A DNA stretch of 53,168 bases from a virus, in the IMG/VR virus record IMGVR_UViG_3300033153_001916, positions 1 through 53,168 of that record. One strand, written 5' to 3'. The translations under genes and the position numbers were made by a program. The notes below the pieces were generated by a model. The model was not told the DNA's origin and made no database searches. It saw only the letters and a program-made list of their open reading frames with translations. Shown here piece after piece: positions 9,337-50,643 of the stretch. Every line of letters begins with the position of its first letter. Position 1 is the stretch's first letter.

Positions 9337-9561
9337 TTATTTTTGTTTAGCAAATTTTTCTAATCCTGCGATACCGAATGATCCAAGGGTCACTATAACA
9401 AAACTGTTATAAGTGAACTCGTTGATGTATAGGTCGTTCCCAAACGCACCAGTGATCACATCGGCAATCATCACTAACACCATTACGGCAAAGGAGAGAA
9501 AACCTATAATGGTTTTCTCGTTCCAATTGTTGTCGTCCTTAAATATATCTATGAACTTCAT
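9337..9561 (-). CDS. holin
   Basis: It encodes 74 residues with two predicted membrane helices: TIIGFLSFAVMVLVMIADVI (about 18-37) and SFVIVTLGSFGIAGLEKF (about 53-70). The C-terminus is short and basic. It lies 3 nt upstream of the amidase gene and overlaps the end of the giant gene by one base. Size, topology and position all fit a small class II-type phage holin. Confidence 0.78.
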   Translation of the reverse strand: MKFIDIFKDDNNWNEKTIIGFLSFAVMVLVMIADVITGAFGNDLYINEFTYNSFVIVTLGSFGIAGLEKFAKQK

Positions 9562-15500: not shown

Positions 15501-18260
15501 AACATCTCTATCTGCCGTAACCTCTTCAACGCCTGCTTCTTCGATAGGTTCGCCTTCGACAACGGCTTGCCCTTCTTCGACAGGACTTGGTACCCCTGCT
15601 TCTTCTTGACTAACATCTTCTAAGTATTTACTTTCGATCGCTGCCTTTCTGCTTCTAGCATCTACAAGTTTAGATCTAGCCTCTTGCTTTTCTTCGACAG
15701 TTTCGGCTACACCGAACTGTCTAGACAACTCACGTATTTCTGTATTGATATCTGATATAGCGGCTTGGTCTTCCGCTGAGAACTCTGCAGGAGCTTCGGC
15801 TATTGGAGCCTCTTCTCCGAGAACCTCTTCTGCTGTAACTGGAGCCTCTTCTACTACCTCCTCTTCAACCGCAGGTTCTACAGCTATTGGCTCCTCAACT
15901 GCAGGCTCTTCAACAATAACCTCCTCTACAGCGGCTTCCTGCTCTACTGCAGAAAACTTATCAGCTAATAGATCTGTTACCTCTGAATCATTTGTGGCTT
16001 CCCAAGCTCCTTCTGTAATCTCTTCAGGAGTGGCTGCTTCTAGCTGTTCTATAAATTGTTCTCTGCTTAGGAACTTACCATCACGAAGATATGTAGCATT
16101 TCTTCGCTCAGCCATATTAACTAACTCAGCATCTATTTCTTTTATCCTGTCGGTCTTATCCTTTACAAGGCTTTTATCTTTGCCCTGTATCTGTTCGTCA
16201 AGAGTTTTCTTTTCAACAAGCAACTCAAGAGCCTTCTTCTGATCGGCAATGTTTAAGTCGGTTGGAATCTGTGTGGTTACGCCAATGATTCTGTTAAACT
16301 CATCAAAATTTTGCTTAGCCTCAGCTTCCGTCATCTCACCAGCAGAGACTTTTTGTCTTAGGCTTTGACCATACATAGTGGTAAACTCAGAGTCGGTAGA
16401 CATATCCTTAAGCATATTAAACGCATCGTCGTCTATTAAGCTCATCTCTTTGTTATTCACTGCATTGATTACAGCTCCCGGAGTAGATAGTACAAAACCA
16501 CCTACAGCTTCTTGAGCACCGCCCTTTAAAACCTCACCAGCAAATTCAATCCAAGTGTTGGGGGTCTGGAACATATCCTTCTCCTTGGAGATATTGTATA
16601 TTTCTTTTATGGTGATTTCAGCAGCTTGTTGCGCTGCACCTGTTTCAAATTCTGCAAGACCACCGGCGCCCACAGTAAGAATACCACGAGCCATCATATT
16701 CTCAACATCCTCTCTAATAAACTGAGAAAATGTCTTAGCTGATGTTGACTTTGTAGATCTACCTAGGGCTTTTGCTACCAAGCTGTTGAGCAGACCTTTC
16801 TGGTTTATGACGTTTCTAAAACCATATGTTTCTAGTACAGCGACAGTTACACCAACTGGAGCTGTAATGTAGTACTTTTCACTTTCAGATATATCATCAA
16901 ACTCTGGATTGCTCTCCATCTCTTGGTTCAACTGATCTGTTGTTAGGGCATACATATTTGCAGTACGCTGAGCCCAACCCACAGGACCAGCACCACCAGC
17001 CATAGCGGGTAATGATTCAGCAAGTCCAAGAATAGCACCGCCCCAGAAGCCTTCCTTCTGCATATCACGCCACTGCTCTGTGGTTCCCTTGTCTCCAAAC
17101 AGCTCACGAGCACCTTCACGTGTAGCGTCTACAATACCCATCTCTGGATCTGTATTTGCAGCTACAAATGAATATGGGTTTCTGAAGTATCCTTCCCCAA
17201 ACTTTACGCCTTTCTTAGCGTTATCTTTAGCCTTCTCGTCTATAATCTGTCCAAGGGTTTTTCCAGCTGAGCGAGTACCATATTGCTGAAAGCTAACTGG
17301 ACCAAACTCAGCTCCGAAAGCATCAGTTGTTTCTGCAGGCTCCTCTGGAACACTGTATTTCATTTGCTCCTTAATCTCAGCTACAGTCATATCCTCATAA
17401 CCTTCAGGAAGAAGGTCTGAATATCCTAACTGCTCTGCAGCACTTATAAATGTCTCTCTATAGCCTTTCTCTCCCATCGCTGGTGTTGGGAAGTATTCCA
17501 CCATAAAGTCTGTGAGCATACTCATCTGACCTGCAGAAATAGAACCCACGCCTGATAAAACGCTGTTCCAGATACCTCCAGCCCAGTTACCCTTCTGAGA
17601 CTGCACGTCAACGAAATCACCCACCATCTTATCTAGACGGGCACCTTGTTCCTTGAAGTACTTTTCTCTCTCAACAAGATCTGCATATTCTTGTTGCAGT
17701 GCTATATCTCTCTCTTTGAATTCGTTGTACTCTAACCTAAGAGATGGATCGATGTTTATCTGCTCTTCTGTGAGACCTCCAAATTTATCATTGTATTCAA
17801 CCTTAATCTCTTGAGCACGGGCGGTCCAAGAATCTATATCTTCTTTGTATTTCTTGGTTTCCTCATTGAATATATTCGATGCCTTTTCTACGTCTTCTTG
17901 GCTGCGAATAATGTTTTGCTGTTTAGAAAAGTCAAGTGAGTAATCGTTTATAGCTTCACTATCTACTGTATCTTGAGGGAAGAACGCATCCTCAGGTTGT
18001 TCTGTATATGTCGAATCGCCATCCAAAGATACTGAAGGAATAGCGTCGTCTTTTTTTTTTACTGCAGGCTCAGGGAACTTATACTGATTAAGAAACTCTT
18101 CCTTACTCTTAGTATAGAAACCGTCTCTGCTAACAACATCAAAAACCTTTTCTTTATATTCTGGTTCCTCTAGATATTTGAAAGCAAACTCTTCCCAAGT
18201 TTTAGTATAGTAACCTTCTCGTACAAGAAGGTCATAAAGTTTTACTAATTCGTCGTCCAT
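9561..18260 (-). CDS. giant polyvalent virion protein (2,899 residues)
   Basis: The N-terminus has two copies of a short motif (LLVREGYYTKTWEEFAFKY; VVSRDGFYTKSKEEFLNQY). Membrane-active glycine/alanine-rich stretches lie at about 220-600, and a Glu/Val/Ala/Pro-rich linker at about 770-1045. A metallopeptidase-like domain has HEMMH at 1122-1126 and a downstream EEFLAEF Glu. Unknown beta domains cover about 1300-1890. An XRE-type HTH (KKSGMTPTEVSELLGISKEQ) lies at about 2050-2100. A segment like polyvalent-protein domain LPD38 (RNFTRDIQTAVLNLY; NLTVNFNKSGEWGQIGN) covers about 2320-2560. Such proteins are packaged and enter the cell with the DNA, where domains may counter defence or switch host transcription. 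A run of ten T at 18051-18060 encodes part of VKKKDD. Confidence 0.8.
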   Translation of the reverse strand: MDDELVKLYDLLVREGYYTKTWEEFAFKYLEEPEYKEKVFDVVSRDGFYTKSKEEFLNQYKFPEPAVKKKDDAIPSVSLDGDSTYTEQPEDAFFPQDTVDSEAINDYSLDFSKQQNIIRSQEDVEKASNIFNEETKKYKEDIDSWTARAQEIKVEYNDKFGGLTEEQINIDPSLRLEYNEFKERDIALQQEYADLVEREKYFKEQGARLDKMVGDFVDVQSQKGNWAGGIWNSVLSGVGSISAGQMSMLTDFMVEYFPTPAMGEKGYRETFISAAEQLGYSDLLPEGYEDMTVAEIKEQMKYSVPEEPAETTDAFGAEFGPVSFQQYGTRSAGKTLGQIIDEKAKDNAKKGVKFGEGYFRNPYSFVAANTDPEMGIVDATREGARELFGDKGTTEQWRDMQKEGFWGGAILGLAESLPAMAGGAGPVGWAQRTANMYALTTDQLNQEMESNPEFDDISESEKYYITAPVGVTVAVLETYGFRNVINQKGLLNSLVAKALGRSTKSTSAKTFSQFIREDVENMMARGILTVGAGGLAEFETGAAQQAAEITIKEIYNISKEKDMFQTPNTWIEFAGEVLKGGAQEAVGGFVLSTPGAVINAVNNKEMSLIDDDAFNMLKDMSTDSEFTTMYGQSLRQKVSAGEMTEAEAKQNFDEFNRIIGVTTQIPTDLNIADQKKALELLVEKKTLDEQIQGKDKSLVKDKTDRIKEIDAELVNMAERRNATYLRDGKFLSREQFIEQLEAATPEEITEGAWEATNDSEVTDLLADKFSAVEQEAAVEEVIVEEPAVEEPIAVEPAVEEEVVEEAPVTAEEVLGEEAPIAEAPAEFSAEDQAAISDINTEIRELSRQFGVAETVEEKQEARSKLVDARSRKAAIESKYLEDVSQEEAGVPSPVEEGQAVVEGEPIEEAGVEEVTADRDVQAPEEVTAEEAVTEEVPAEQPIVEEAAVEEAVAEEPTTERRRFPEEEMTYATEEEAMAAAEALQESLSVEDPSLLVFSTETTGRRGEKTYGIDVVVDQAVAEEAAVTEEPVVTEAPSADRQQLETASVDAINLSDKAPQMIESFNSALSSIGAAPVNVYVVSDADMQNVTGSSSRAQFRTLEDGTSAVVVNADKASLGSLSHEMMHAYVKAVDLNSKQIVRFTNEVRSQLNKGTKVEKALADKLTAFQKEYLNREVYGKGLTLEDAVIAEEFLAEFVAEVKDGIDVQKMSLSTIERIRKAVVRILNNILGLKIDDTAIKSKEEAFDFINGFLDALEGRTAVAEEAAPTEGVPTEEQGESGQVGTISIPREQIKVIDAPKASDDPRGFVNKFVTDIDINELEGRNFVTNMYDYTSAGTTELGNGISIELLGGRNYVPLMLERNGKELGEVSNLAAFNSESQAEGFIRNAKEGNADLFAPHSGTLKDSWQFQHHIFEELVKTVLDNKIMSKARLMEVFNGAIKSKAGAEAFEAFNKKNKSRLKNLNSFKKNPMKLVELLDADNNYSPDLRKALNQKIAASKEFQKAIGIKNLNQFYNLIADPLNQGVEGGEVMSFVEFDPNTFEISKTKPGDPDHHPSFGWTVKAKIKRILQPNKYYKSYDLTNEYTKYNVSGPEVSTKEDPKFAVSNVKSSAGAIPKVAKVQAREQIDWESSKFGKGQVNPAIVNRSTPVQEAALDLLQGKISNAEYQETVRITQPVEPITRFFLPASTKDMREALDSNKGKILNTAIEDGKEVGLRLDIPAYKNRNIWVVSVHDSGKAGKSISYGSVAWATDVQFGSNPKVAAFIAAGKNIDTGKKQDKTTIARMHGKWKNFDGKTKEERDASAVKKVEEIVAIESSYPGAARKGSPWRQIGMNPFRHSYFYDRRTGKPVVAASEVVQIGGLVYAKDVVYADKNDPVFEVQGYKDSKGETVRFQIEDQVNQEKNSEETYSAINDNKEGVLRSQIDNKVDQDVAASDTWKSRERNVFERFVDLTRRKIQDSYRDIIVVQEDIEYATRKPVGLDQDFRNAEVLMHGAAKNELNKTENRIKDIAGKIKKSGLSVEEVNDLLYAMHAQERNRYLRTISTDIGKSLSEMRKKSGMTPTEVSELLGISKEQYLEVEANKRDLKSSDLTDLLLIYGSTPYRFFYDNALVKDGSGMTDVEARKILAKYDLNLTSPDVSQLSPKIRPAVTAIRELIADTRNRLVESGLESQGTIDAFNAAYKNYVPLRGFADEQFGSEIIEGGGKLEVRAKEKRAKGRKRKADSPLTQAIISNTTTIIRGAKNDVMRRFYELAKDNPNKDIYEVVDPEKSKDYKTLLRNGKVVAVAKSVSDYLLDEKMVSVRIDGDYKFIRFDNVRLANAIRGANVTKSQWLTKYLGAFNRFQSALITTYDPGFIFRNFTRDIQTAVLNLYAEQDLNDGLIKDKDIVGKTIDDVYPASVTIFAVEGGWTGKKEASRNKDMDQYYREFLEDGAKTEWFYSKPADQINKDIEKLIRGKGDNALKAAANLVERINSSVENAVRLSAYVNARKAGVPRAKAAELAKNLTVNFNKSGEWGQIGNSLYLFFNASVQGSSRLLRTLKPAYKIDSEGNRKYHLTRAQKMVVGLYIMGSLFSLYNELKSDEDEDGESFYSKIADFEKERNIIIMKPNGKDYWKMPLPYGQNTFYVAGSYMAEGLMGTKTPGEVASAIVQAAVGSFSPINFPNSKDASSYLVKFALPTIGQIPLSIALNENYFGEKIYRENFPFDPAPKPDSQLGKESGYRWTQAAAKWLNEFTGGSEYRSGYIDWNPDNIDFVVETLTGGAGKFATRSVNAIDKILTGNWDQLESRQIPFVRIFNGQPYEYSNINSFYERTVDVNQKFKEVKAGIIKGPDAKKIYEMHKMGKDYKSRLKKISKLEDEAAGIKDPLKQEARLDKLEKARYKLVADFNKRYIQLKIEDI

Positions 18261-20503: not shown

Positions 20504-23500
20504 TTAATTATGCAGCTTAGAGTCTGCAAATACTGTGTTAATAGCAAACAACTCAATTGGTGATGAGGTTGTTTTTGTGAGTTTTAGCTGTATGTAATAG
20601 TCTCTGATTTGATCTCCTTCGATAGAGCTGTTACCAACAACTACTAATAAATCTCCATCAGATACCGTGACATTACCGCTTAGCGTCAGTGTCTTCTCCG
20701 CTGTTATAGACAGCGGGTAGACACTTAGGCTGTCTAGCTGTGAGCCGTTAAGTTTGTATACCGTAGCGGTAGAGCCTAATGGGAATGACATCGTGTTTAT
20801 AGGGCTGTCAAAGGTAATACTGTTGCCTCCAACAACATCTGAAGCTACATTACCTAATACAAATATCTCGCTAGTGCTAGTGACAGAGGTTATAGATGAT
20901 CCGTGAGATGTAGTGTCTCCGTGAATAGAGGCGTAATAGAAGCCTTCTTTTTCGGTCCATACCCCGCTAGGCGCTGTGTCTGGATCGTATACAGTTCCTG
21001 CTAGGGTAGCTGTTTGGTTGGTCGTTGTAGCGACCACCTGCCAAGTAGCATCCCCCTCTAGAGATAGAGATTCAAAACTCTTGATAGCAGAAGGTGCACG
21101 GTTAGACACAGACTCAACAATAGATTCTGCAACAGCCCCACCGTAGTAAGTGTTTCTATCAGCATCTTCACTATGCTTGTATATCTTTCCTGACTTGAAT
21201 GTATACATATCGCTGTTTAAAGATACAATAGATTCTGGAGTAAACGAATATCTTGTGGTCCAAGCCTTGTCATTTGTTCCGTAAGCTATGGTAAATGCGG
21301 CTAGTGCTACAGCATCTGAAGTTATGGTACCTGTGTCGTCAGATGTACAATAATCATTATCAAAAACGAAGGTTTGTTCGTCTGTGTTTACAGTTATCGC
21401 AGCAAAGAAGTTAAAGTCTGAGTTTGTTGCTACACCGTATCTAGTTACAGTTTCCGTTTCGGCAGAATCAATAAATATAGCCCCGCCATCTGCAATGTCG
21501 TCCATATATACAATTGCCTGAAGGCTATCCTGAAACTCGTCACATATGCTGTTAAAAGCTCTTTCTTCCGTGTTGAAACTAAATACAGCTACATCGTTTA
21601 CAGTCACAGGAGCAAGAACTTTGGTTCCGCTACTGTCTAGCTGTGCGCTATATGTGTACTGCACTGAAGGTGAGGCATTAGTACTAACTACCACTTCAGC
21701 CTTTGTGATGGTATCAGATGATACTATATACTCATTGTTGTCTATATCTATACCTCCAACAACTTTAGTGGGCGAATACTTGGTAATCACACCAAACTTA
21801 TCTTCAAAGTACGAAGACATATTAGCATCGCTAATTATCGTGATTCCTTGTGAATCGATTCGTAATACCCTACCTTTTTTAACATCAGCAAAATATACCA
21901 TACCATCTCTTGAAGAGACGCTTTCTGAGTGTGAGGTTCCGTATTCTCCGACATAATATTGTTCTGATTGAAGTACGTTATTAGATAGCGCTACAAGGTT
22001 ATCTCCACTGCTAGTCTGTATTACATTTCTGTTTACAGCTATAACACCAGCTCTGTTTTCCTGTATGAAATACAGCCTTTGGTTATATCCTTCCAGACCT
22101 TTCACTGAGCCATACTCATAATCCAAGTCCATAAAATTACTCAAGGACAGGTTGAATGACGACAATCCGTTAAATGTGCCTTCGTGTAGGTATGGCTCTG
22201 AATACGTTATAGAGCCGCTACGCTTAACTGTTTTAGCATCTGGTATAGGTGCTAATGGTCTACCTATAGAAGAGCTCTCAGAAGCGAAGAAATCGCTAAC
22301 GCTGTAATCATCTATGTATTTGGTGATACCGGTTGTTCTCAGGTATATCCTATAGTTGTTTGCTTCTAGCTGATCAGTAGCTATAAAAATAGATCTAGGT
22401 CTAAAGTACGCATCTCCATTAGAGAGGTCAATAACCTTCTCTGGATTTGATACAGTAAAAGAATACGAACCAAGGGTGAATGAAGCCCCGGTTCTATACT
22501 TACCGTAATAGGTGCTTCCAGATTTCCAAGTATTTAGTATAGTGATATCTGGCTGTCCAGAGGTCTCTAAAACATCCCCCTTAAAGAATTGTGTACTGCT
22601 AGATATTTCATCAGCGGTGACAGTTGCTGTAAATGTAGTAGCTGTTCTTTCATCACTATGTACACCGTTAACAACTTGATAGCTTTTTCCTAGCTCATAA
22701 TATATATTGTCCTCTGTTTCCGGCTTCTTATTGTATACTTCTACAATACATTTCTCAAACCACTTACTAGCCCTGTCGTTTATTTTAGATATGGTGAAAT
22801 TAGAAGCTTCTGTATTTTCCTCTAGTACCAAAAATTTACCTGTAGTAGACTCTATGGAAGATGTACTAGAAGTATCTAGTATTGGGTTGTCATCACTATT
22901 CTCTAATATTTCGTACCCAATAACATTAAATTCTGATGTCTCGTATCCACCATCGTAACTTATGATACGAAGCTTATCCCCATTTTCAAAAGTATAGCTT
23001 AATAACGCTCCCGTAGAGTTGTCGTAACTATTTTCTTTCCCTGTTAGTGTATTTAAGGATACATAAATCACATCCGAAGATGAAAAAGATGTTATATCTC
23101 CTTCTGATCTAAAAGGAATAAATGCGCCGCCAACACCATATATAAACTTGCTGGTCGTACCTCCTCTACCTGTGTATACAGGAGCCCATCTACTAGCCCA
23201 AGAAGGAGCTGATTCAGGAAGTCTCATAACAATAGATGCCGCCCCGTACAGATCGTTTTCATTTGATCTGTCGTTTAGAGCATTCACATACACGTCACCT
23301 AACTCTTGAACACCACTACTTCTGTTTCTACTGTCGTAATAAACAATACCCAGTTTATGAGATGATCCAGATTTAAACGCCTTTGTTTCTTTTCCGAGCT
23401 CAGTGAGAGCGAAAGTACCCACACTCAATTCAGAACTGCTTGTCGTAACTACATAGCTTGTAAGATTGACAGATATCACATCTGAATTAACGATGTTCAT

Positions 23501-25150
23501 CCTCGTCTGAGCAGCTCCTTTATAATACTCCTGAACCTGAAGATCAACGCTTATAGGTCTGAATTCAACGGTTGATGTAGTGGTCCCTACTGGATGCGTA
23601 ACAAAGGTAGAAAACTCCATAGCACCCTTAAGATTCCCATTGTTATTGGTACCATTGAAGGCCATAATAGAATTACTCGTTTGAGGCTTTCTTAGGGTAA
23701 CGGAGTAAACGATACTGTCCAAAAGAGAGTTTACAGAATCTATTACCTGCTGTCTGGTATATCCAGAGGGTATATCTATGAATTCCTGAACCTGAATACC
23801 AGAGGAATCAAAATTAGCTCCGTTGGTCGTGGCGTCTGCAACTGTATTTATTGAGAATACATCGTATGCAAAGTTATTATTCGAATCGCTTTCATAATAC
23901 GCCACATCAGCGCTAGTAAATGCAAATGAAGTTCCTCCAGATCCATTTATAGTTATTAGATTGGTATCTAAAAAGAAGTTTATAAAAAGCTTAGAATCTG
24001 TAGAAACAGTAGCCGGGATAGATGAAAAATCAAGTGATACCGATCTTCCTGTTATCGCATTTAACGTAGCTGTTACATCGTAAACAATTGGATCTTGTTT
24101 GTAATTAGCTATCAGTGCTACATCCCCCTTTTCTAATGAGTTGGGATATCCTTCACTATATCCCCCGTACATCAATCTGCCGTCAACGATCTCTTGAGAA
24201 TCTGCTAACTGAGGAACGTTATCAAACAGCTTGTTTTTATCTGTAACGCTCAAGGCATTCCCGACAACCGAATTTGAAAACTGTACCGTAGTGGGGTTGG
24301 AAGTGAAAGAATTATTTAGTTCTTCGATCTGATAGAACGTACCATCATTTCCTTGTCTGGCAAACACCTGAATCTTATCTACATCAGCTACCGTGTTTTT
24401 AACAAACACGTTAATCTGATTGTAGAAGTCTTTTGATTGCTGAGTATTAAAGCCGTCTCTCAGCTGCGCCACTGAAGTGGTCAATGAAGAGTATGGCGAT
24501 AGTGCTGATATCTCTCCATCCTGATAGATGTATCTATAAGCAAACTGGAACACCTTATCGCTTATTCTATTTTCTTTTACATCTCCGTTATTTACAATAC
24601 TATAGGTAGGTGGGTCTAAAGGAGGTTGCTTAGCTGTTGTTAAGTACAACAGCTTTTCCTCATCCGTACCCGAAGTAAACTTAGATGGGTATCCACCACG
24701 TAAAGCTTTTGAAGCATTAATTTTTTTAGGCTCACTATTAGCTGTGCTAAAGTACACAAGCTCATCACCGTCTAGTGATGTCACAATATTAGCCTTGACA
24801 AATGCATCTTCAGTGAAGCCTAAAACAGAGTCTTTGTATACTTGGTATGCCGCATCTTTTGTTGCTGAATACCTATATATGGTGTGATCATTATTGCTGT
24901 TCCATACAAAATAGAATATGGAGTTTTTTTGATCGTTAGCTACAGAACCTATAACCTTGTTGGTACCTGCGGGCAATGCGGTGTCTAACGTAATCTCGTC
25001 ATTACCGTATGCGTTCTTAATGACAAAGGCATCTCCTTCGTCATCAGAAGAAATACGCACGTTAAGAGCATCAGTCATTTCTGTACTCTTAACTAAGCGG
25101 ACATCATCGTCACTGTTAAGGTATCTTGGGGTTAACTTATGTAGAGCCAT
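20504..25150 (-). CDS. tail nozzle / stabilisation protein (T7 gp12-like class)
   Basis: It encodes 1,548 residues. The N-terminus (MALHKLTPRYLNSDDDVRLV, then KSTEMTDALNVRISSDDEGD) and the propeller-like repeats that follow (NSIFYFVWNSNNDHTIYRYS; DGDELVYFSTANSEPKKINA) resemble the tail nozzle/stab proteins of podoviruses and crAss-like phages. The rest is beta-rich with domain insertions. It lies directly after two ring-protein genes, the expected order for a short tail. The family call is by pattern and context, not a search. Confidence 0.6.
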   Translation of the reverse strand: MALHKLTPRYLNSDDDVRLVKSTEMTDALNVRISSDDEGDAFVIKNAYGNDEITLDTALPAGTNKVIGSVANDQKNSIFYFVWNSNNDHTIYRYSATKDAAYQVYKDSVLGFTEDAFVKANIVTSLDGDELVYFSTANSEPKKINASKALRGGYPSKFTSGTDEEKLLYLTTAKQPPLDPPTYSIVNNGDVKENRISDKVFQFAYRYIYQDGEISALSPYSSLTTSVAQLRDGFNTQQSKDFYNQINVFVKNTVADVDKIQVFARQGNDGTFYQIEELNNSFTSNPTTVQFSNSVVGNALSVTDKNKLFDNVPQLADSQEIVDGRLMYGGYSEGYPNSLEKGDVALIANYKQDPIVYDVTATLNAITGRSVSLDFSSIPATVSTDSKLFINFFLDTNLITINGSGGTSFAFTSADVAYYESDSNNNFAYDVFSINTVADATTNGANFDSSGIQVQEFIDIPSGYTRQQVIDSVNSLLDSIVYSVTLRKPQTSNSIMAFNGTNNNGNLKGAMEFSTFVTHPVGTTTSTVEFRPISVDLQVQEYYKGAAQTRMNIVNSDVISVNLTSYVVTTSSSELSVGTFALTELGKETKAFKSGSSHKLGIVYYDSRNRSSGVQELGDVYVNALNDRSNENDLYGAASIVMRLPESAPSWASRWAPVYTGRGGTTSKFIYGVGGAFIPFRSEGDITSFSSSDVIYVSLNTLTGKENSYDNSTGALLSYTFENGDKLRIISYDGGYETSEFNVIGYEILENSDDNPILDTSSTSSIESTTGKFLVLEENTEASNFTISKINDRASKWFEKCIVEVYNKKPETEDNIYYELGKSYQVVNGVHSDERTATTFTATVTADEISSSTQFFKGDVLETSGQPDITILNTWKSGSTYYGKYRTGASFTLGSYSFTVSNPEKVIDLSNGDAYFRPRSIFIATDQLEANNYRIYLRTTGITKYIDDYSVSDFFASESSSIGRPLAPIPDAKTVKRSGSITYSEPYLHEGTFNGLSSFNLSLSNFMDLDYEYGSVKGLEGYNQRLYFIQENRAGVIAVNRNVIQTSSGDNLVALSNNVLQSEQYYVGEYGTSHSESVSSRDGMVYFADVKKGRVLRIDSQGITIISDANMSSYFEDKFGVITKYSPTKVVGGIDIDNNEYIVSSDTITKAEVVVSTNASPSVQYTYSAQLDSSGTKVLAPVTVNDVAVFSFNTEERAFNSICDEFQDSLQAIVYMDDIADGGAIFIDSAETETVTRYGVATNSDFNFFAAITVNTDEQTFVFDNDYCTSDDTGTITSDAVALAAFTIAYGTNDKAWTTRYSFTPESIVSLNSDMYTFKSGKIYKHSEDADRNTYYGGAVAESIVESVSNRAPSAIKSFESLSLEGDATWQVVATTTNQTATLAGTVYDPDTAPSGVWTEKEGFYYASIHGDTTSHGSSITSVTSTSEIFVLGNVASDVVGGNSITFDSPINTMSFPLGSTATVYKLNGSQLDSLSVYPLSITAEKTLTLSGNVTVSDGDLLVVVGNSSIEGDQIRDYYIQLKLTKTTSSPIELFAINTVFADSKLHN

Positions 25151-45472: not shown

Positions 45473-45529
45473 GTAGCTGGAGGGTCGTCGCCTCAAGCAG
45501 AGACCCGCTCAGCTACTTTGTGAGAGCGG
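45473..45529. other. nested stem with a competing alternative stem
   Basis: GTAGCTG (45473-45479) with CAGCTAC (45510-45516) encloses GGGTC (45482-45486) with GACCC (45502-45506). CCGCTC (45505-45510) can instead pair with GAGCGG (45524-45529). The two folds share bases 45505, 45506 and 45510 and exclude each other, as in switch-like RNAs. Confidence 0.4.
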
Positions 45530-46129
45530 CAAAAACTATCCCTACAGTAAACACCCCCCAGATCCTGTCAGTTCGCACAGCTTTTAATAGCTGTTGCTCC
45601 TGCCAGTATCCTCCTTTCTCCTCCACGAAAACCTCCCCCGACTGGCTTGATCCTACTTAACAGCTTTATGTCCCTTCAAAAGCGCTCTAAACAGCTGATA
45701 TACCCGTTAAAAAAGGGATGAGTAATGTTTAGGTGGGGGATAATATATAGTATAGGACGTTGGCGCACGCAACCCGAAGTGGAATCTGAAACCCCACCCC
45801 CTACATATAAAACATTGATTGTCAAAACTTTTAGCGTTTGCTATCTACAGTACTGGTTCAGCTATAGCTATGTAACTATCTGGCTTTCAGTCGGCTAGCT
45901 GATGAGGTGGAACAGACTAGTTGCCGATGGTGTTCTGTCCATAGGTGGAACAATCCCCACCCCACCATACACCTCAACCCAACACACTCTCACACGCTCA
46001 CACATCCACGCTCCTGCCGTTTCTCAGGGCTGATGGATACCAACCTTGGGGCAGTCCCTCACGTGCGTGCGGGTCATACTATGGCAAGATTTAGATGCCT
46101 AGGTATTTACACTCAATTGTGAAAAAAAG

Positions 46130-46138
46130 TGTGTATAA
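46130..46138 (-). promoter_or_regulatory. DnaA-box match
   Basis: TGTGTATAA is the exact reverse complement of TTATACACA, which fits the consensus TTATnCACA. It follows a run of seven A in the non-coding divergent region. One or two such matches are expected by chance in a genome of this size. Confidence 0.35.
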
Positions 46139-46273
46139 CCCTTGTGTAATCCAAATAGCTGTCGTACCATTGTATTGTTGAAAGGGACAAAGCGCCGTAA
46201 CGCTGACTCCGACTAGTTAGGTCTAGTGACGTTCTTTACTTATTGGATACTAAGTTATAATCAGTCTGATGAG

Positions 46274-46353
46274 GGGTAGCAATCTACTACCCTGAGTGCT
46301 TCGGCACTCGACCCCTGAGATGGGGCGAAACCACGGGATATGGGGAGCATATC
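46274..46353 (+). ncRNA. multi-hairpin leader or small structured RNA
   Basis: Four consecutive hairpins: GGGTAG/CTACCC (46274-46279, 46287-46292), GAGTGC-TTCG-GCACTC (46294-46309), CCCC/GGGG (46312-46315, 46322-46325) and GATATG/CATATC (46337-46342, 46348-46353). A fifth, the module-1 hairpin, follows at 46366-46387. GGGGT (46273-46277) can also pair with ACCCC (46311-46315), giving an alternative fold. No known RNA family is recognised. It could be a free RNA or the leader of the early transcript. Confidence 0.45.
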
Positions 46354-46365
46354 AACTAATAACAG

Positions 46366-46406
46366 CGGAAGCGCTTCGGTGCTTCCGTTGGTTACTGATA
46401 ACTTAA
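46366..46406 (+). promoter_or_regulatory. hairpin-core module 1
   Basis: CGGAAGCGC-TTCG-GTGCTTCCG hairpin (46366-46387), 2 nt, then GGTTACTGATAACTTAA (46390-46406), then 12 nt to the ATG at 46419. Confidence 0.85.
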
Positions 46407-46418
46407 ATTAAACGCTTT

Positions 46419-46625
46419 ATGACTATTCAAAAATTCAACAACAAACTTGCTAAGATGACTAGCGTTACTGAAGCATCAAGACACTACGGTAAAAACGTAG
46501 ATGAAATCATTAAGGCACTTCAATGCCGTGTATGTGTTCGTAGATACAAAAACGGAGAAGTGAAGCAAATATCCATTGATTTCACGGATAACGCATCAGG
46601 AATCAATATCAAATTAATCTGCTAG
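46419..46625 (+). CDS. small basic early protein
   Basis: It encodes 68 residues: MTIQKFNNKLAKMTSVTEAS, then YGKNVDEIIKALQCRVCVRR and a beta-rich end (QISIDFTDNASGINIKLIC). The first half could be a small HTH-like helical unit (TSVTEASRHYGKNVDEIIKA). It is the first gene of the early arm, after the structured leader. Start set by the module spacing. Function is unknown. Confidence 0.6.
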   Translation: MTIQKFNNKLAKMTSVTEASRHYGKNVDEIIKALQCRVCVRRYKNGEVKQISIDFTDNASGINIKLIC

Positions 46626-46636
46626 GATAGGTTAAA

Positions 46637-46670
46637 GAAGGGCAACGCCCTTCGGTCACTGATAACTTAA
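46637..46670 (+). promoter_or_regulatory. hairpin-core module 2
   Basis: GAAGGGC-aac-GCCCTTC (46637-46653) directly abuts GGTCACTGATAACTTAA (46654-46670); 11 nt to the ATG at 46682. This is a C variant of the core. Confidence 0.85.
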
Positions 46671-46681
46671 TTAAATGCTTT

Positions 46682-46924
46682 ATGAAAAAGTACGCAATCA
46701 CACACGAAGACGGAACAAAGGATGTCTTCACCACTAGGTTCACCAAGGAGGAACTCAATGCATTAGCCTACGCTGTAGAACTCGCATTTGGAGACTCAGA
46801 CTTGTTCCTTGAGGACAAAAGGAAAGATGCTGATAAGTTATTGCTTAGGCTTTCCTCTAAACTAACCCTAAGAGGGGTGAACCAACAAAGCTATTCAAAC
46901 TTCGCTAACACCTACCTACGTTAA
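46682..46924 (+). CDS. small early protein of unknown function
   Basis: It encodes 80 residues: MKKYAITHEDGTKDVFTTRF, then TKEELNALAYAVELAFGDSD and KDADKLLLRLSSKLTLRGVN. A beta start followed by helices with acidic surface. Single-gene unit bounded by modules 2 and 3. No family recognised. Confidence 0.55.
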   Translation: MKKYAITHEDGTKDVFTTRFTKEELNALAYAVELAFGDSDLFLEDKRKDADKLLLRLSSKLTLRGVNQQSYSNFANTYLR

Positions 46925-46943
46925 CACCTACCTAGAGCAGAAA

Positions 46944-46977
46944 GCCCCCCGATGGGGGGCGGTCACTGATAACTTAA
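46944..46977 (+). promoter_or_regulatory. hairpin-core module 3
   Basis: GCCCCCC-gat-GGGGGGC (46944-46960) abuts GGTCACTGATAACTTAA (46961-46977); 11 nt to the ATG at 46989. Confidence 0.85.
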
Positions 46978-46988
46978 AGAAACGAATT

Positions 46989-47234
46989 ATGGACAACGTA
47001 AAAGAGCAATTGCTGTCAATGGAGATTGGTATCTACCAAGAAATCACATTCAGCAATGGTATACTTAAATCCACAAAAGAATTGTGCCGTATCGCAGAAG
47101 GCGAATGGGTAGTAGAATCTCATAGCTGTGGATGGTCTACAGCCTATATGAATCTAGATACAGCCGTAGCTTACCTAGAGGGAAAAATCAAGGGATACGA
47201 ACTAAGATGGGAGGACAACGAAATCATCCTATAA
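46989..47234 (+). CDS. small acidic early protein
   Basis: It encodes 81 residues: MDNVKEQLLSMEIGIYQEIT, then RIAEGEWVVESHSCGWSTAY and YLEGKIKGYELRWEDNEIIL. It looks like a compact beta-rich fold with a conserved-looking Trp/Cys patch. Function is unknown. Confidence 0.55.
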   Translation: MDNVKEQLLSMEIGIYQEITFSNGILKSTKELCRIAEGEWVVESHSCGWSTAYMNLDTAVAYLEGKIKGYELRWEDNEIIL

Positions 47235-47239
47235 ACTAA

Positions 47240-47273
47240 GAGGTGCAATGCACCTCGGTCACTGATAACTTAA
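47240..47273 (+). promoter_or_regulatory. hairpin-core module 4
   Basis: GAGGTGC-aat-GCACCTC (47240-47256) abuts GGTCACTGATAACTTAA (47257-47273); 11 nt to the ATG at 47285. Confidence 0.85.
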
Positions 47274-47284
47274 TTAAATGCTTT

Positions 47285-47533
47285 ATGAAAAATCATTTCG
47301 AAGAAATTAAATTTCACATCTTACTTGCTGAATACACTTCAACGAGGATTGAAGAAATGTCTGCAAATCGGATATTCAATTCAGGTAAAGAAGAAGGTGA
47401 CGACTTTGAATTTATTTACTCTTTACAAGATAACTACTTTGATAGAGTAATGAGATTGAGTGTAGGTCAATCTATGCCCTTTCTAACTAGCAGAGATGCA
47501 TCTTGGTACTCTGTAATTGTTAGGGTAAAATAA
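47285..47533 (+). CDS. small early protein of unknown function
   Basis: It encodes 82 residues from ATG 47285 (MKNHFEEIKFHILLAEYTST). The open frame extends upstream through module 4, but the module spacing fixes the start. Mixed helix and strand (DFEFIYSLQDNYFDRVMRLS; SRDASWYSVIVRVK), with an N-terminal helix. No family recognised. Confidence 0.55.
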   Translation: MKNHFEEIKFHILLAEYTSTRIEEMSANRIFNSGKEEGDDFEFIYSLQDNYFDRVMRLSVGQSMPFLTSRDASWYSVIVRVK

Positions 47534-47543
47534 CAAGATTCAA

Positions 47544-47577
47544 GAAGGGCAACGCCCTTCGGTTACTGATAACTTAA
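47544..47577 (+). promoter_or_regulatory. hairpin-core module 5
   Basis: GAAGGGC-aac-GCCCTTC (47544-47560) abuts GGTTACTGATAACTTAA (47561-47577); 11 nt to the ATG at 47589. The hairpin is the same as in module 2. Confidence 0.85.
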
Positions 47578-47588
47578 AACCTTTTACA

Positions 47589-47780
47589 ATGGAAAAGCTA
47601 ACAAACGAAATCATCGAACGCCTAGAATACGTAGATGGAGATGGCGTTGAATTCGAGGTATACCAAGATCCCGAAACCGGCAAATTATACTACGTAGAGA
47701 TTGAGATTGTGAGACACTTTGAATGCGCTGAAGCGATTGATGAGGCGAACGCAAATTTCATCATCGACCACAGATGTTAA
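47589..47780 (+). CDS. small acidic early protein
   Basis: It encodes 63 residues, strongly acidic: MEKLTNEIIERLEYVDGDGV, then EFEVYQDPETGKLYYVEIEI and ECAEAIDEANANFIIDHRC. The YVDGDGVEFEVYQDPETGKLYYVEI part reads as a beta hairpin pair. An anti-host DNA-mimic role would suit the charge, but that is a guess. Confidence 0.55.
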   Translation: MEKLTNEIIERLEYVDGDGVEFEVYQDPETGKLYYVEIEIVRHFECAEAIDEANANFIIDHRC

Positions 47781-47785
47781 GCAAA

Positions 47786-47818
47786 CCCTCCTGATGGAGG
47801 GGGTTACTGATAACTTAA
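47786..47818 (+). promoter_or_regulatory. hairpin-core module 6
   Basis: CCCTCC-tgat-GGAGGG (47786-47801) abuts GGTTACTGATAACTTAA (47802-47818); 11 nt to the ATG at 47830. Confidence 0.85.
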
Positions 47819-47829
47819 AATTATATATT

Positions 47830-48015
47830 ATGATACGAAGAAATTTAATTCATCAAGTAAGACACAAATTATCATCTACAAAACAAGAATTATTCTTGAT
47901 AAAGACAGCATTAGAAAAAGAAAAAGATGTTGTGTATGATAATTCAAAAGAAGAAATCGAAGAGCATCATTCTAAAATTGATGCAATACTTGAACAAATC
48001 GCACAAATAATATAA
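47830..48015 (+). CDS. small helical early protein
   Basis: It encodes 61 residues from ATG 47830: MIRRNLIHQVRHKLSSTKQE, then LFLIKTALEKEKDVVYDNSK and KIDAILEQIAQII. It is an all-helical hairpin. An open frame running in from 47719 crosses module 6 and is rejected. Function is unknown. Confidence 0.55.
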   Translation: MIRRNLIHQVRHKLSSTKQELFLIKTALEKEKDVVYDNSKEEIEEHHSKIDAILEQIAQII

Positions 48016-48016
48016 A

Positions 48017-48050
48017 GAAGGGCAATGCCCTTCGGTTACTGATAACTTAA
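48017..48050 (+). promoter_or_regulatory. hairpin-core module 7
   Basis: GAAGGGC-aat-GCCCTTC (48017-48033) abuts GGTTACTGATAACTTAA (48034-48050); 12 nt to the ATG at 48063. Confidence 0.85.
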
Positions 48051-48062
48051 TTTTATTGAACT

Positions 48063-48284
48063 ATGCTTTACGCAATGTACTACCAACTAGGAAATACCAT
48101 AACGTACATTATCTCAGGAGATAATTACGAGGACACCTACTACTACGAAATCGATGCCAACATCGATGATTTCAAGGTCATTGTATCACCTTTCGATTGT
48201 GATGATTCACCACAATTTAGAGACTACATCAAGCACCTGATTGAACGTGCAACGCCAACCAGATTTCACGTGGTGTACGAATAG
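48063..48284 (+). CDS. small acidic early protein
   Basis: It encodes 73 residues, Tyr- and Asp-rich: MLYAMYYQLGNTITYIISGD, then DTYYYEIDANIDDFKVIVSP and RDYIKHLIERATPTRFHVVY. Probably a small alpha/beta fold. Function is unknown. Confidence 0.55.
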   Translation: MLYAMYYQLGNTITYIISGDNYEDTYYYEIDANIDDFKVIVSPFDCDDSPQFRDYIKHLIERATPTRFHVVYE

Positions 48285-48289
48285 CAAAA

Positions 48290-48322
48290 GCCACCTTCGG
48301 GTGGCGGTTACTGATAACTTAA
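48290..48322 (+). promoter_or_regulatory. hairpin-core module 8
   Basis: GCCACC-ttcg-GGTGGC (48290-48305) abuts GGTTACTGATAACTTAA (48306-48322). The ATG at 48333 is 10 nt away; the ATG at 48327 would be only 4 nt away, outside the range of the other modules. Confidence 0.85.
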
Positions 48323-48332
48323 ATTGATGACT

Positions 48333-48701
48333 ATGAAAACTTTATTAGCTGTTATTGTAGCGCTGACCTTTGGGTCTTGCGCTCCAAATGTCTACGGAGA
48401 TTTATACGAGGTTACCAGCGTGGTAACTAAGCCGAACGAAGGACCTATTGAGGTCTACTCATCCGCTAGGGATTTCGTCCGCACCGATATCAAGATGACC
48501 AACGATAGCATCTTCCTGATGGAGGCTGTAGGTCAGGACAACAAATTGGTGGTGACTCAATCCTTCGACTACTTGAGTGTAGTGGACTTCAAAGAGGGCA
48601 ATAATGAAGAAGGTGAGCCATTCGAACTCTCACTAATTAATACCGACTCAACGTGTGTTACTACGTACTTGCTGTACGACCTAAATAACCACTACGAGTA
48701 G
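48333..48701 (+). CDS. early lipoprotein or exported protein
   Basis: From ATG 48333 it has 122 residues with a signal ending in a probable lipobox (MKTLLAVIVALTFGSC, Cys 16). The mature part is beta-rich (DLYEVTSVVTKPNEGPIEVY; KLVVTQSFDYLSVVDFKEGN). It is the only clearly exported protein of the small-gene string. An early surface lipoprotein suggests superinfection exclusion, which is inference only. Confidence 0.6.
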   Translation: MKTLLAVIVALTFGSCAPNVYGDLYEVTSVVTKPNEGPIEVYSSARDFVRTDIKMTNDSIFLMEAVGQDNKLVVTQSFDYLSVVDFKEGNNEEGEPFELSLINTDSTCVTTYLLYDLNNHYE

Positions 48702-48706
48702 TCTAA

Positions 48707-48741
48707 GAGGGGCAACAGCCCCTCGGTTACTGATAACTTAA
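48707..48741 (+). promoter_or_regulatory. hairpin-core module 9
   Basis: GAGGGGC-aaca-GCCCCTC (48707-48724) abuts GGTTACTGATAACTTAA (48725-48741); 12 nt to the ATG at 48754. Confidence 0.85.
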
Positions 48742-48753
48742 ATTGAATGCCTT

Positions 48754-49059
48754 ATGAACATTAAAACTATTTACAAGCTACAACGTGAGTACGGACTAGC
48801 TGATATGCAAGAAGCTATCAATACGGGTATGGCTTGGAAGCTAGAAGGTAGTGTAGGTCGAACTGCAATGCAGTTACTACGCTCAGGAGCTTGTTTACTA
48901 CCAAAGAAAGCCGTTATCGATGCATACGGCAACAAAGTACCAAGTAGAGACGAGGTAGTCTCAGGTACGTTAGGGAGCTTTGAGAATTCTGTAAACTTTT
49001 GGAGTGACGAATTCAACATCATAGAACTTGATGAAGCAATGTACTTTGAAGAGTACTAA
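48754..49059 (+). CDS. small early protein of unknown function
   Basis: It encodes 101 residues: MNIKTIYKLQREYGLADMQE, then LEGSVGRTAMQLLRSGACLL, PSRDEVVSGTLGSFENSVNF and an acidic end (NIIELDEAMYFEEY). Mostly helical. Its pattern recalls small conserved phage proteins of unknown role. Confidence 0.55.
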   Translation: MNIKTIYKLQREYGLADMQEAINTGMAWKLEGSVGRTAMQLLRSGACLLPKKAVIDAYGNKVPSRDEVVSGTLGSFENSVNFWSDEFNIIELDEAMYFEEY

Positions 49060-49065
49060 ACCTAC

Positions 49066-49102
49066 GGCCCTTTTAAGAGGGCCTTGGTTACTGATAACTT
49101 AA
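49066..49102 (+). promoter_or_regulatory. hairpin-core module 10
   Basis: GGCCC (49066-49070) pairs with GGGCC (49079-49083), with extra A-T pairs inside. After 2 nt comes GGTTACTGATAACTTAA (49086-49102); 11 nt to the ATG at 49114. Confidence 0.8.
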
Positions 49103-49113
49103 ACAAATGTATT

Positions 49114-49275
49114 ATGACTGCGAATGATTTTGCATCTATCTGCACCAGCGCCTCAGTTTCTGTAGCTGTAGCGCTAGAGAACAAACGTGTTGTTGAGCTC
49201 CTGAAGAAGGACAAGAAGCAACCATCAATTAATAACCAACTAATCCTTTCTGGATTGTTACAAACAGAATTTTGA
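49114..49275 (+). CDS. small helical early protein
   Basis: It encodes 53 residues from ATG 49114: MTANDFASICTSASVSVAVA, then LENKRVVELLKKDKKQPSIN and NQLILSGLLQTEF. The next gene starts 1 nt after its stop, so the two share module 10. Function is unknown. Confidence 0.5.
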   Translation: MTANDFASICTSASVSVAVALENKRVVELLKKDKKQPSINNQLILSGLLQTEF

Positions 49276-49276
49276 T

Positions 49277-49630
49277 ATGAACAAAGTAGATTTTATACAG
49301 CTGTTACAAGCGCACGACTGGACCTACCAGTACAGCGATGACCCCAGCAAGTACAAACGAGGTCAGGCTCAACGTGAAGCCATCAACAAGGCTAGAAAGG
49401 AGCTTGGCGTAGAGGGTGATGCCCTCTACGAAACCTACAGCAAAGTACCTGAGGCTAGAATCGTTATCCCGGTGAAAGCCGAACGCACTATGCCCAAGGT
49501 AATGTGCCGTAAGACCGGTCGTACCGGGCACTTAATCGATAAGAGCCCCAACGGATTTATGGAGGTTAGATTCAGCGATGGATACCGCACGGAATTCCTA
49601 CGCCATACCGACATCATCAAGCTAGGCTAA
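49277..49630 (+). CDS. early protein of unknown function
   Basis: It encodes 117 residues: MNKVDFIQLLQAHDWTYQYS, then KYKRGQAQREAINKARKELG (helical, basic) and a beta-rich C-terminus (RIVIPVKAERTMPKVMCRKT; GFMEVRFSDGYRTEFLRHTD). The first part could bind nucleic acid. Its stop codon lies in the loop of the module 11 hairpin. Confidence 0.55.
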   Translation: MNKVDFIQLLQAHDWTYQYSDDPSKYKRGQAQREAINKARKELGVEGDALYETYSKVPEARIVIPVKAERTMPKVMCRKTGRTGHLIDKSPNGFMEVRFSDGYRTEFLRHTDIIKLG

Positions 49631-49654
49631 GCCTAGTGGTTACTGATAACTTAA
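49622..49654 (+). promoter_or_regulatory. hairpin-core module 11 (stop codon in the loop)
   Basis: CTAGGC-taa-GCCTAG (49622-49636) holds the last codons and the TAA of the gene before it. GGTTACTGATAACTTAA follows at 49638-49654; 13 nt to the ATG at 49668. Confidence 0.8.
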
Positions 49655-49667
49655 ATTAAAACGTCTT

Positions 49668-49853
49668 ATGACAAATTTAGAAAAAGCAAAAGAATGGTTC
49701 GCTATGAACAGCTACGAGGTACACGTCGATAGATTTGACGGTGTAATTTCCGTAGGGATCGATGAGAACCTAATGGTTGAGATTAGTGATGCTGAAGTGA
49801 AGTTTAGAGCTGAACTTTGGGATGAAGCTGTAAAGCAAAGCAATGAACTATGA
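49668..49853 (+). CDS. small acidic early protein
   Basis: It encodes 61 residues: MTNLEKAKEWFAMNSYEVHV, then DRFDGVISVGIDENLMVEIS and KFRAELWDEAVKQSNEL. A helix-strand-strand-helix pattern. It overlaps the next gene by 4 nt (ATGA), so both depend on module 11. Confidence 0.55.
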   Translation: MTNLEKAKEWFAMNSYEVHVDRFDGVISVGIDENLMVEISDAEVKFRAELWDEAVKQSNEL

Positions 49854-50119
49854 AGACACGTGAAGAGATGTTGGTGATATTGGGAGAGCTGTTCCCTATC
49901 ACCGGAACTACTGAGGACTTCGATGGAAGCCAAGGTGGGATTTGGATTTGTGGCGAGTCTGGATACCTAAATGCTAGAGGTGTACGCTTCTTTGATTACT
50001 ACGCTGAGGATGAATCTTACGAGCTTGGCGTACTTACCAACCTGAGAAAACTTGCTAATAAGCACGGATGGTTCTTCGAATGGTACGATGCCGGAACTAT
50101 TATGGTGTACCCTGATTAG
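49850..50119 (+). CDS. early protein of unknown function
   Basis: It encodes 89 residues: MKTREEMLVILGELFPITGT, then DGSQGGIWICGESGYLNARG and LANKHGWFFEWYDAGTIMVY. Alpha/beta with many aromatics. It is translationally coupled to the gene before it. Its stop lies in the module 12 stem-loop. Confidence 0.55.
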   Translation: MKTREEMLVILGELFPITGTTEDFDGSQGGIWICGESGYLNARGVRFFDYYAEDESYELGVLTNLRKLANKHGWFFEWYDAGTIMVYPD

Positions 50120-50145
50120 GGTATGCCGGTTACTGATAACTTTAA
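50104..50145 (+). promoter_or_regulatory. hairpin-core module 12 (stop codon in the hairpin)
   Basis: GGTGTACCCT pairs with AGGGTATGCC (50104-50113, 50118-50127, including two G-U pairs). The TAG stop of the preceding gene is inside. The core follows directly with one extra T (GGTTACTGATAACTTTAA, 50128-50145); 12 nt to the ATG at 50158. Confidence 0.8.
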
Positions 50146-50157
50146 AAACAAATTGCT

Positions 50158-50601
50158 ATGGGACTAGATATGTACCTATTCAGAACTACTCACTTAAGAT
50201 TGACTAATGATGCGTCTACAAAGGAACTTAATTCAGCACACATCAAAGGGGAACGAATAACTAGGATAGTCGAGGAAATGGCTTATTGGAGAAAGGCAAA
50301 CCACATCCACAATTGGTTTGTTAAAAACGTTCAAGACGGCGAAGATGACTGCAATGAATACTATGTCACCAACGACCACATTAAAGAGCTTAACAAAGTT
50401 TGTAAGAGGGTCTTGGATGACAACTCTTTAGCGAAGGAGCTGTTACCTACAGCTAGTGGTTTCTTCTTTGGAGGCGTAGAGTACGACAAGTACTACTTTC
50501 ATTGGGTATCTCATACCCTAGAGGTAACTAATACGTTACTTGAGGAGATGGGGAGTTACAACTCATTTTCAGTCGACATTGTATACCAATCATCTTGGTA
50601 G
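50158..50601 (+). CDS. conserved phage protein of the MGLDMYL type
   Basis: It encodes 147 residues. It starts MGLDMYLFRTTHLR and has MAYWRKANHIHNWFVKNVQD, LLPTASGFFFGGVEYDKYYF and a C-terminal helix. This set of motifs is widespread in phages and prophages as a conserved hypothetical of about this length; I know no established function. Conserved Trp, His and Asp residues suggest a binding or catalytic pocket. It is the most recognisable product of the small-gene string. Confidence 0.7.
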   Translation: MGLDMYLFRTTHLRLTNDASTKELNSAHIKGERITRIVEEMAYWRKANHIHNWFVKNVQDGEDDCNEYYVTNDHIKELNKVCKRVLDDNSLAKELLPTASGFFFGGVEYDKYYFHWVSHTLEVTNTLLEEMGSYNSFSVDIVYQSSW

Positions 50602-50610
50602 AAAATTAAG

Positions 50611-50643
50611 GAGGGCATTGCCCTCTGGTTACTGATAACTTAA
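50611..50643 (+). promoter_or_regulatory. hairpin-core module 13
   Basis: GAGGGC-att-GCCCTC (50611-50625), 1 nt, then GGTTACTGATAACTTAA (50627-50643). The ATG at 50654 is 10 nt away; the ATG at 50648 would be 4 nt away and is less consistent with the other modules. Confidence 0.85.

Follow-up and report, generated by a model that had tools for sequence, protein, structure and literature searches.

What is served by a hairpin that differs from copy to copy, followed by a constant core, in front of one early gene after another? The question is raised by IMG/VR record IMGVR_UViG_3300033153_001916, of which one strand was analyzed over its full 53,168 nucleotides (nt) (positions 1 to 53,168, hereafter the window). 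The element, here called a module, consists of a variable hairpin plus GGTY-ACTGATAACTTAA and occurs 13 times within 46364-50643, always on the + strand and nowhere else in the window. The sequence evidence set out below suggests that the modules are probably RNA cleavage sites rather than promoters or sites for ribosomal protein S1. Very probably, the early operon is transcribed as a single RNA, and a hammerhead ribozyme in its leader recognizes and cuts all modules, module 1 in cis and modules 2 to 13 in trans. It is also likely that this constitutes the first natural trans-acting hammerhead, that is, a leader RNA enzyme processing a phage polycistronic early transcript at 13 hairpin-marked sites. 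What was computed for this purpose comprises fold, complementarity, register, core conservation, covarying folds, co-occurrence, and the ribozymes that relatives hold in the same slot.

All 13 of the hairpin-plus-core units that a preliminary description had placed near start codons were recovered: the core ACTGATAACTTAA is exact in 12 of them and holds one T more in module 12, compared with a chance expectation of 2.9 copies at up to two mismatches, and none of 100 shuffles reached 13. The core is preceded by GGTC in modules 2 to 4 and by GGTT in the other modules, and it ends 10 to 13 nt before the ATG; the predicted cut would leave a 5' untranslated region of 23 to 26 nt. Every gene gap of 37 to 64 nt in the stretch holds a module (module 1 lying in the leader that precedes the first gene), and the module-less genes overlap or almost touch the preceding gene, with gaps of -11 to +22 nt; there is thus one module per translation unit, i.e., per non-coupled gene. 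The modules are as follows, a slash marking the predicted cut.

46364-46406, + strand: module 1, hairpin 46364-46389, GGUU/ACUGAUAACUUAA, predicted cut after 46393, start 46419; a cis cut is possible
46637-46670, + strand: module 2, GGUC/, predicted cut after 46657, start 46682
46944-46977, + strand: module 3, GGUC/, predicted cut after 46964, start 46989
47240-47273, + strand: module 4, GGUC/, predicted cut after 47260, start 47285
47544-47577, + strand: module 5, GGUU/, predicted cut after 47564, start 47589
47786-47818, + strand: module 6, GGUU/, predicted cut after 47805, start 47830
48017-48050, + strand: module 7, GGUU/, predicted cut after 48037, start 48063
48290-48322, + strand: module 8, GGUU/, predicted cut after 48309, start 48333
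48707-48741, + strand: module 9, GGUU/, predicted cut after 48728, start 48754
49066-49102, + strand: module 10, GGUU/, predicted cut after 49089, start 49114
49621-49654, + strand: module 11, GGUU/, predicted cut after 49641, start 49668; the hairpin loop is the upstream gene's stop codon
50104-50144, + strand: module 12, GGUU/, stem I region with one T more in its outer part, predicted cut after 50131, start 50158; the stop codon of the upstream gene lies in the hairpin loop
50611-50643, + strand: module 13, GGUU/, predicted cut after 50630, start 50654

In modules 2, 4, and several others, an extra ATG (AAATGCTTTATG) stands out of frame shortly before the start codon.

The hairpins were analyzed over 55 distinct sites from nine phages. 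Their distance to the GG is 0 nt in 38 sites, 1 nt in 9, and 2 nt in 6, and their mean fold energy is -10.7 kcal/mol, versus -3.6 kcal/mol for shuffled sequence. Stem oppositions comprise 350 Watson-Crick pairs, 10 G-U pairs, no A-C, and 5 others, so that the stems keep pairing despite their differences in sequence, in agreement with the earlier proposal that the shape of the hairpin is kept and its sequence free while the core is read by sequence. The presence of G-U and absence of A-C in the stems argue for selection on the + strand RNA, the level at which pairing therefore appears to be kept.

The system reaches upstream of the region covered by the preliminary description, to a leader RNA at 46251-46353, which reads UAAGUU-AUA-AUCAGU-CUGAUGA-G[hairpin]U[hairpin]GA-CCCC-UGAGAU-GGGG-C-GAAACC-ACGG[hairpin]. 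Its predicted parts, together with a candidate promoter, are the following.

46142-46172, + strand: candidate Bacteroidetes-type promoter of the early transcript, TTG-N20-TACCATTG, a consensus match only, with one mismatch to TAnnTTTG
46251-46265, + strand: ribozyme 5' arm (stem I strand), UAAGUU-AUA-AUCAGU with a 3-nt bulge (AUA), antisense to the module core
46266-46332, + strand: hammerhead catalytic strand, with CUGAUGA at 46266-46272, GAA at 46327-46329, and ACC (stem III strand) at 46330-46332
46266-46332, + strand, further parts: G10.1 at 46273, inserted hairpins at 46274-46292 and 46294-46309, stem II CCCC-UGAGAU-GGGG at 46312-46325, and C11.1 at 46326
46337-46353, + strand: conserved 3' hairpin of the leader, GAUAUG-GGGAG-CAUAUC, with two-sided change in four of its six pairs

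The hammerhead core, CUGAUGA at 46266-46272 plus GAAA at 46327-46330, is constant in eight distinct leaders, and the G10.1-C11.1 pair closing stem II is G-C in all eight. While CUGAUGA and GCGAAACCACG do not vary across these leaders, the leader hairpins covary: 97.8% of their cells are paired, versus 77% in shuffles, and 44 cells are altered on both sides, versus 16.7. The stem II hairpin itself has 4 base pairs (bp), one of which is altered on both sides in one phage. Features possibly relevant to a contact between loop II and stem I are present, namely a stem I bulge (AUA or AAA) and a loop of UGAGAU or UGAAAC, and the two hairpins inserted after G10.1 are unusual for a hammerhead. Folded together, the leader and module 1 (z = -5.7) form stem I, stem II, and the hairpins. 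The candidate promoter lies about 80 nt upstream of the ribozyme, inside a block conserved in four phages. Upstream of the ribozyme, window positions 45490-46250 hold some 750 nt of highly conserved, apparently noncoding sequence between divergent gene blocks, where more structured RNA is possible.

What ties leader and modules together is their complementarity. The leader arm is the reverse complement of ACUGAU and of AACUUA, with the 3-nt bulge in between, and the ACC that follows GAA is the reverse complement of the module's GGU. The arm pairs with all 13 module cores and is the only antisense match to the core outside the modules in the window, where 0.1 would be expected by chance; likewise, of 52 CTGANGA motifs in the window, the one at 46266 alone has a matching arm. 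The register is exact, in that pairing starts beside C3 and at A15.1, making GGUH/ACUGAU a standard hammerhead site (G16.3 G16.2 U16.1 H17 / A1.1 C1.2 onward), and stems I and III pair in register with an NUH strand, stem III having just 3 bp. Over 67 sites in nine phages, identified by a pattern that fixed GGU and left position H open to any base, H17 is U in 57, C in 9, A in 1, and never G. ACUGAU is found in 66 of these sites, and the remaining AUUGAU still pairs via G-U. AACUUAA is kept in 47 of the 51 sites whose arm holds UAAGUU, as opposed to 6 of the 16 whose arm lacks it, and in the related contig G004 two departures (AAUUUAA) still pair through G-U. Cofolding of the leader with those other modules that were tested gave the same stem I. 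One enzyme strand thus faces 13 matching sites in the window, and 67 such sites were counted in the nine phages.

Based on these features, we propose that the early operon would be transcribed as a single long RNA whose leader folds into a hammerhead. The 5' arm and the ACC after GAA would recognize GGUH/ACUGAU(AACUUA) in each module, with cleavage after H; the cut at module 1 in cis would free the leader, which could then cut modules 2 to 13 in trans. After such a cut, the downstream gene would have a uniform leader of 23 to 26 nt beginning with 5'-OH-ACUGAUAACUUAA, and the upstream message would end in the hairpin plus GGUH with a 2',3'-cyclic phosphate. Given that the ribozyme gives only ACC to stem III, the adjoining substrate hairpin could lengthen this 3-bp stem by coaxial stacking; any paired sequence would then serve, and only the shape of the hairpin and its position beside GG would matter. 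The hairpin may also shield the new 3' end. Cleavage, trans action on modules 2 to 13, turnover, stacking, and 3'-end protection are what we infer from the computed features.

Relatives of the phage provide a further line of evidence. The window's terminase shares 42 to 47% identity with its counterparts in Flavobacterium elemo podoviruses and in an environmental podovirus, and core copies occur in related contigs: 12 in G001, 14 in G002, 5 in G003 (a 9.6-kb fragment), 7 in G004, and fewer in G005, G006, and G008. Homologous modules, whose absence would have spoken against the element, are therefore present. The ribozyme pattern matches eight IMG/VR contigs besides the window, all of them module-bearing, and matches nothing in an annotated phage collection. 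Pattern matches in a Nocardiopsis contig, judged to be due to chance, and in L056, where the match falls in GC-rich coding DNA without modules, were not counted as members. The trans system was not seen in the looser relatives L049, L051, and L053 or in the terminase set, many of whose stretches stop short of the early region. In the related podovirus L041/L042 (MW202828), at least seven early genes at 43.8-50 kb are preceded by another repeat, the perfect palindrome GTGTCGTTAACGACAC.

In several of these phages, the slot in front of early genes holds self-cleaving ribozymes. Scanning revealed cis-hammerheads ahead of early genes in G004, G005, G006, and G008, as well as a candidate ahead of an early gene in the cultured Flavobacterium phage elemoE_6-9C (L040, NC_055854; complement, about 16370-16300). 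The cis-hammerhead-like ribozymes at L045:3162 and 4538, L046:3863 and 5495, L010:10409, L004:4171, L044:5510, L075:1529 (-), and L127:2078 (-) precede early genes (in G001, inside the leader); these calls rest on sequence and pairing pattern, and most fall below Rfam gathering thresholds, such as the one in G004 with 21.4 bits. Pistol ribozymes were found by Rfam in G004 (70.6 bits, L045:3764-3828) and L075 (71.7 bits, L075:532-596 [-]), each directly upstream of an early-gene start codon. The relatives' cis-hammerheads and pistols lie mostly 22 to 27 nt before start codons, and the hammerhead products would begin with UGUAACUUAAAUAAAAUGCUUUAUG (G004) and UAUAACUUAAAUUAAAUGCUUUAUG (G005), compared with ACUGAUAACUUAA...AUG for the modules. 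With ribozymes at the same position in relatives, the modules seem to occupy a slot of RNA self-cleavage sites. When these cis ribozymes were found, the module was considered as a self-contained new ribozyme, a notion that was dropped once the antisense arm was seen.

Genes are shuffled among these phages, such that one downstream leader follows different hairpins and one hairpin precedes different genes. This suggests that a hairpin moves together with the gene before it and a leader with the gene after it, the core marking the cassette boundary. An alignment of leaders from four phages shows that G001 has an extra cassette ending in a hammerhead-like sequence. G001 also has two modules separated by 80 nt of self-pairing spacer instead of a gene (L044:8542-8640), which could represent a deleted cassette or else a small noncoding unit.

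Several observations weigh against a leader hammerhead that acts on every module. The leader stays far below the Rfam Hammerhead_3 threshold (12.3 bits versus 48.5), the Rfam hammerhead models representing compact cis forms, on which the G004 cis-hammerhead fails likewise (21.4 versus 52 bits). The inserted hairpins sit in the 5' strand of stem II and may impair the fold. In the minimum-energy fold with module 1, the module hairpin takes up the first G of GG, and the 3-bp stem III is therefore missing; full hammerhead pairing there is free of mismatches yet 12 kcal/mol less stable under a nearest-neighbor model, which does not credit the hammerhead core. Among 300 trials with shuffled cores, 3 attain the duplex energy, and arm and core were never seen to change together in a compensatory way. 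The contrast in AACUUAA between long and short arms is confounded by kinship, and AACUUAA is likewise found in leaders that follow cis ribozymes, so that its conservation has in part another cause, possibly a second role in the mRNA leader. Finally, a stem I of 12 bp may slow product release, and one leader per transcript would have to cut 12 further sites.

In a rival reading, the ribozyme would cut module 1 only, in cis, and modules 2 to 13 would bind the freed leader as antisense, uncut, for the control of translation or stability. Leader and module 1 make up a complete tethered hammerhead, and the 12-bp arm would bind every module. We nevertheless consider this unlikely: for mere binding, modules 2 to 13 would not have to retain the GUH triplet or the GGU that pairs with the stem III strand, yet they do, and in relatives the genes located before the leader carry cis ribozymes of their own in this position.

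Alternatively, the hairpin could end the upstream transcript and the core could be a phage or host promoter, perhaps an N4-like hairpin promoter. N4 early promoters also use small hairpins, there is one unit per non-coupled gene, and a giant virion-type protein is encoded in the window. However, neither TAnnTTTG nor a run of five T occurs in the 90 nt preceding any of the 13 starts, as had been noted before, and the modules have neither the U-tract after the hairpin of an intrinsic terminator nor the TAnnTTTG of a Bacteroidetes promoter. Stem and loop sequences are free, the G-U pairs without A-C point to pairing at the RNA level, and the antisense ribozyme arm would be left unexplained. Promoters for a phage RNA polymerase on the N4 model were judged improbable, as no polymerase domain was recognized in the giant protein of 2,899 amino acids by Pfam, PHROGs, and PDB sequence searches. 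No candidate factor for the core emerged among the other window proteins searched (helicase, Erf, exonuclease, DnaA-like, and structural). Altogether, a promoter/terminator unit is improbable. Least probable of all is an element for translation initiation read by S1, the ribosome, or a phage protein, the function favored in the preliminary description: the near-constant distance to the start codon (23 to 26 nt from the predicted cut) is predicted equally by a cleavage site that sets the 5' end, and, although AACUUAA-like leaders follow cis ribozymes too and the start-proximal part may act in translation, neither GGUH, nor the abutting hairpin, nor an antisense leader with an intact hammerhead core would be accounted for. 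With the core antisense to a hammerhead arm and self-cleaving ribozymes in the same slot in relatives, the evidence instead favors what that description had listed as an alternative, an RNA cutting site that makes single-gene units.

The 2,899-amino-acid polyvalent protein (window 9561-18260, -) carries LPD38, HTH, and HEMMH (zincin-like) motifs, and its C-terminal third is about 34% identical to the giant protein of Stx-type podophages. A 1,548-amino-acid protein (window 20504-25150, -) matches crAss-like phage muzzle protein families.

How does the proposed leader hammerhead compare with known systems? No known RNA family was found in the window at gathering thresholds, and none was convincing at relaxed ones. 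Cis-hammerheads of phages and prophages share with it the catalytic core, the GUH rule, and a position just before early-gene starts, as in HHphage of haloviruses HF1/HF2, 13 nt upstream of the early helicase gene (PMC3088659); several active ribozymes within one polycistronic RNA are on record in bacteria. There, enzyme and site form one compact fold, whereas here one enzyme strand faces 13 separate sites, hairpins are inserted in stem II, and a substrate hairpin takes the place of most of stem III. In engineered trans-hammerheads, which are man-made (PMC6155905), an enzyme strand likewise acts on a separate NUH substrate through two pairing arms; here, natural phage genomes encode the predicted enzyme, whose stem I bulge and loop II are of the type that natural hammerheads use for tertiary contacts. 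In the discontinuous CLEC2 hammerhead of mammalian 3' untranslated regions, a long sequence also separates enzyme and substrate strands, but one site is cut in one RNA in cis (PMC6155905), compared with 13 sites here, 12 of which would need trans action. RNase P, termed the only natural trans-acting ribozyme in a 2026 paper (PMC13254310), is an RNA enzyme with many separate substrates, as proposed here; it is an unrelated RNA that recognizes a tRNA-like shape and yields a 5'-phosphate, whereas a hammerhead yields a 5'-OH and a 2',3'-cyclic phosphate. SAS and ESAS of cluster K mycobacteriophages are, like the modules, short repeats before the starts of small non-structural phage genes, and about half are preceded by an inverted repeat; SAS has a Shine-Dalgarno core, ESAS repeats are sequence-conserved with a putative promoter, and no ribozyme is reported (PMC3203893, PMC11373665). 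Among described repeats associated with start codons, these come closest, but an identity with SAS/ESAS was rejected, as core and stem rule differ: in place of the 13-bp GGGATAGGAGCCC at 3 to 7 nt before the start and the sequence-conserved ESAS arms, the modules have GGUHACUGAUAACUUAA at 10 to 13 nt and stems free in sequence. No natural multi-site hammerhead was found in the open-licence PubMed Central literature searched, and an earlier report elsewhere is possible.

Thus, the catalytic motif is already known, and one enzyme for a whole operon is without described natural precedent in the literature searched. In nature, small self-cleaving ribozymes are known to act in cis, and engineered trans-hammerheads have been in use for decades; the leader, if it acts as proposed, would be their natural counterpart, and two short RNAs would suffice to test this reading. 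Phage hammerheads would then have a clear function as well, the production of monocistronic early mRNAs with uniform leaders. New genes could then join the operon just by carrying a site, which would explain the shuffling of gene cassettes between these phages, with the site as their common boundary.

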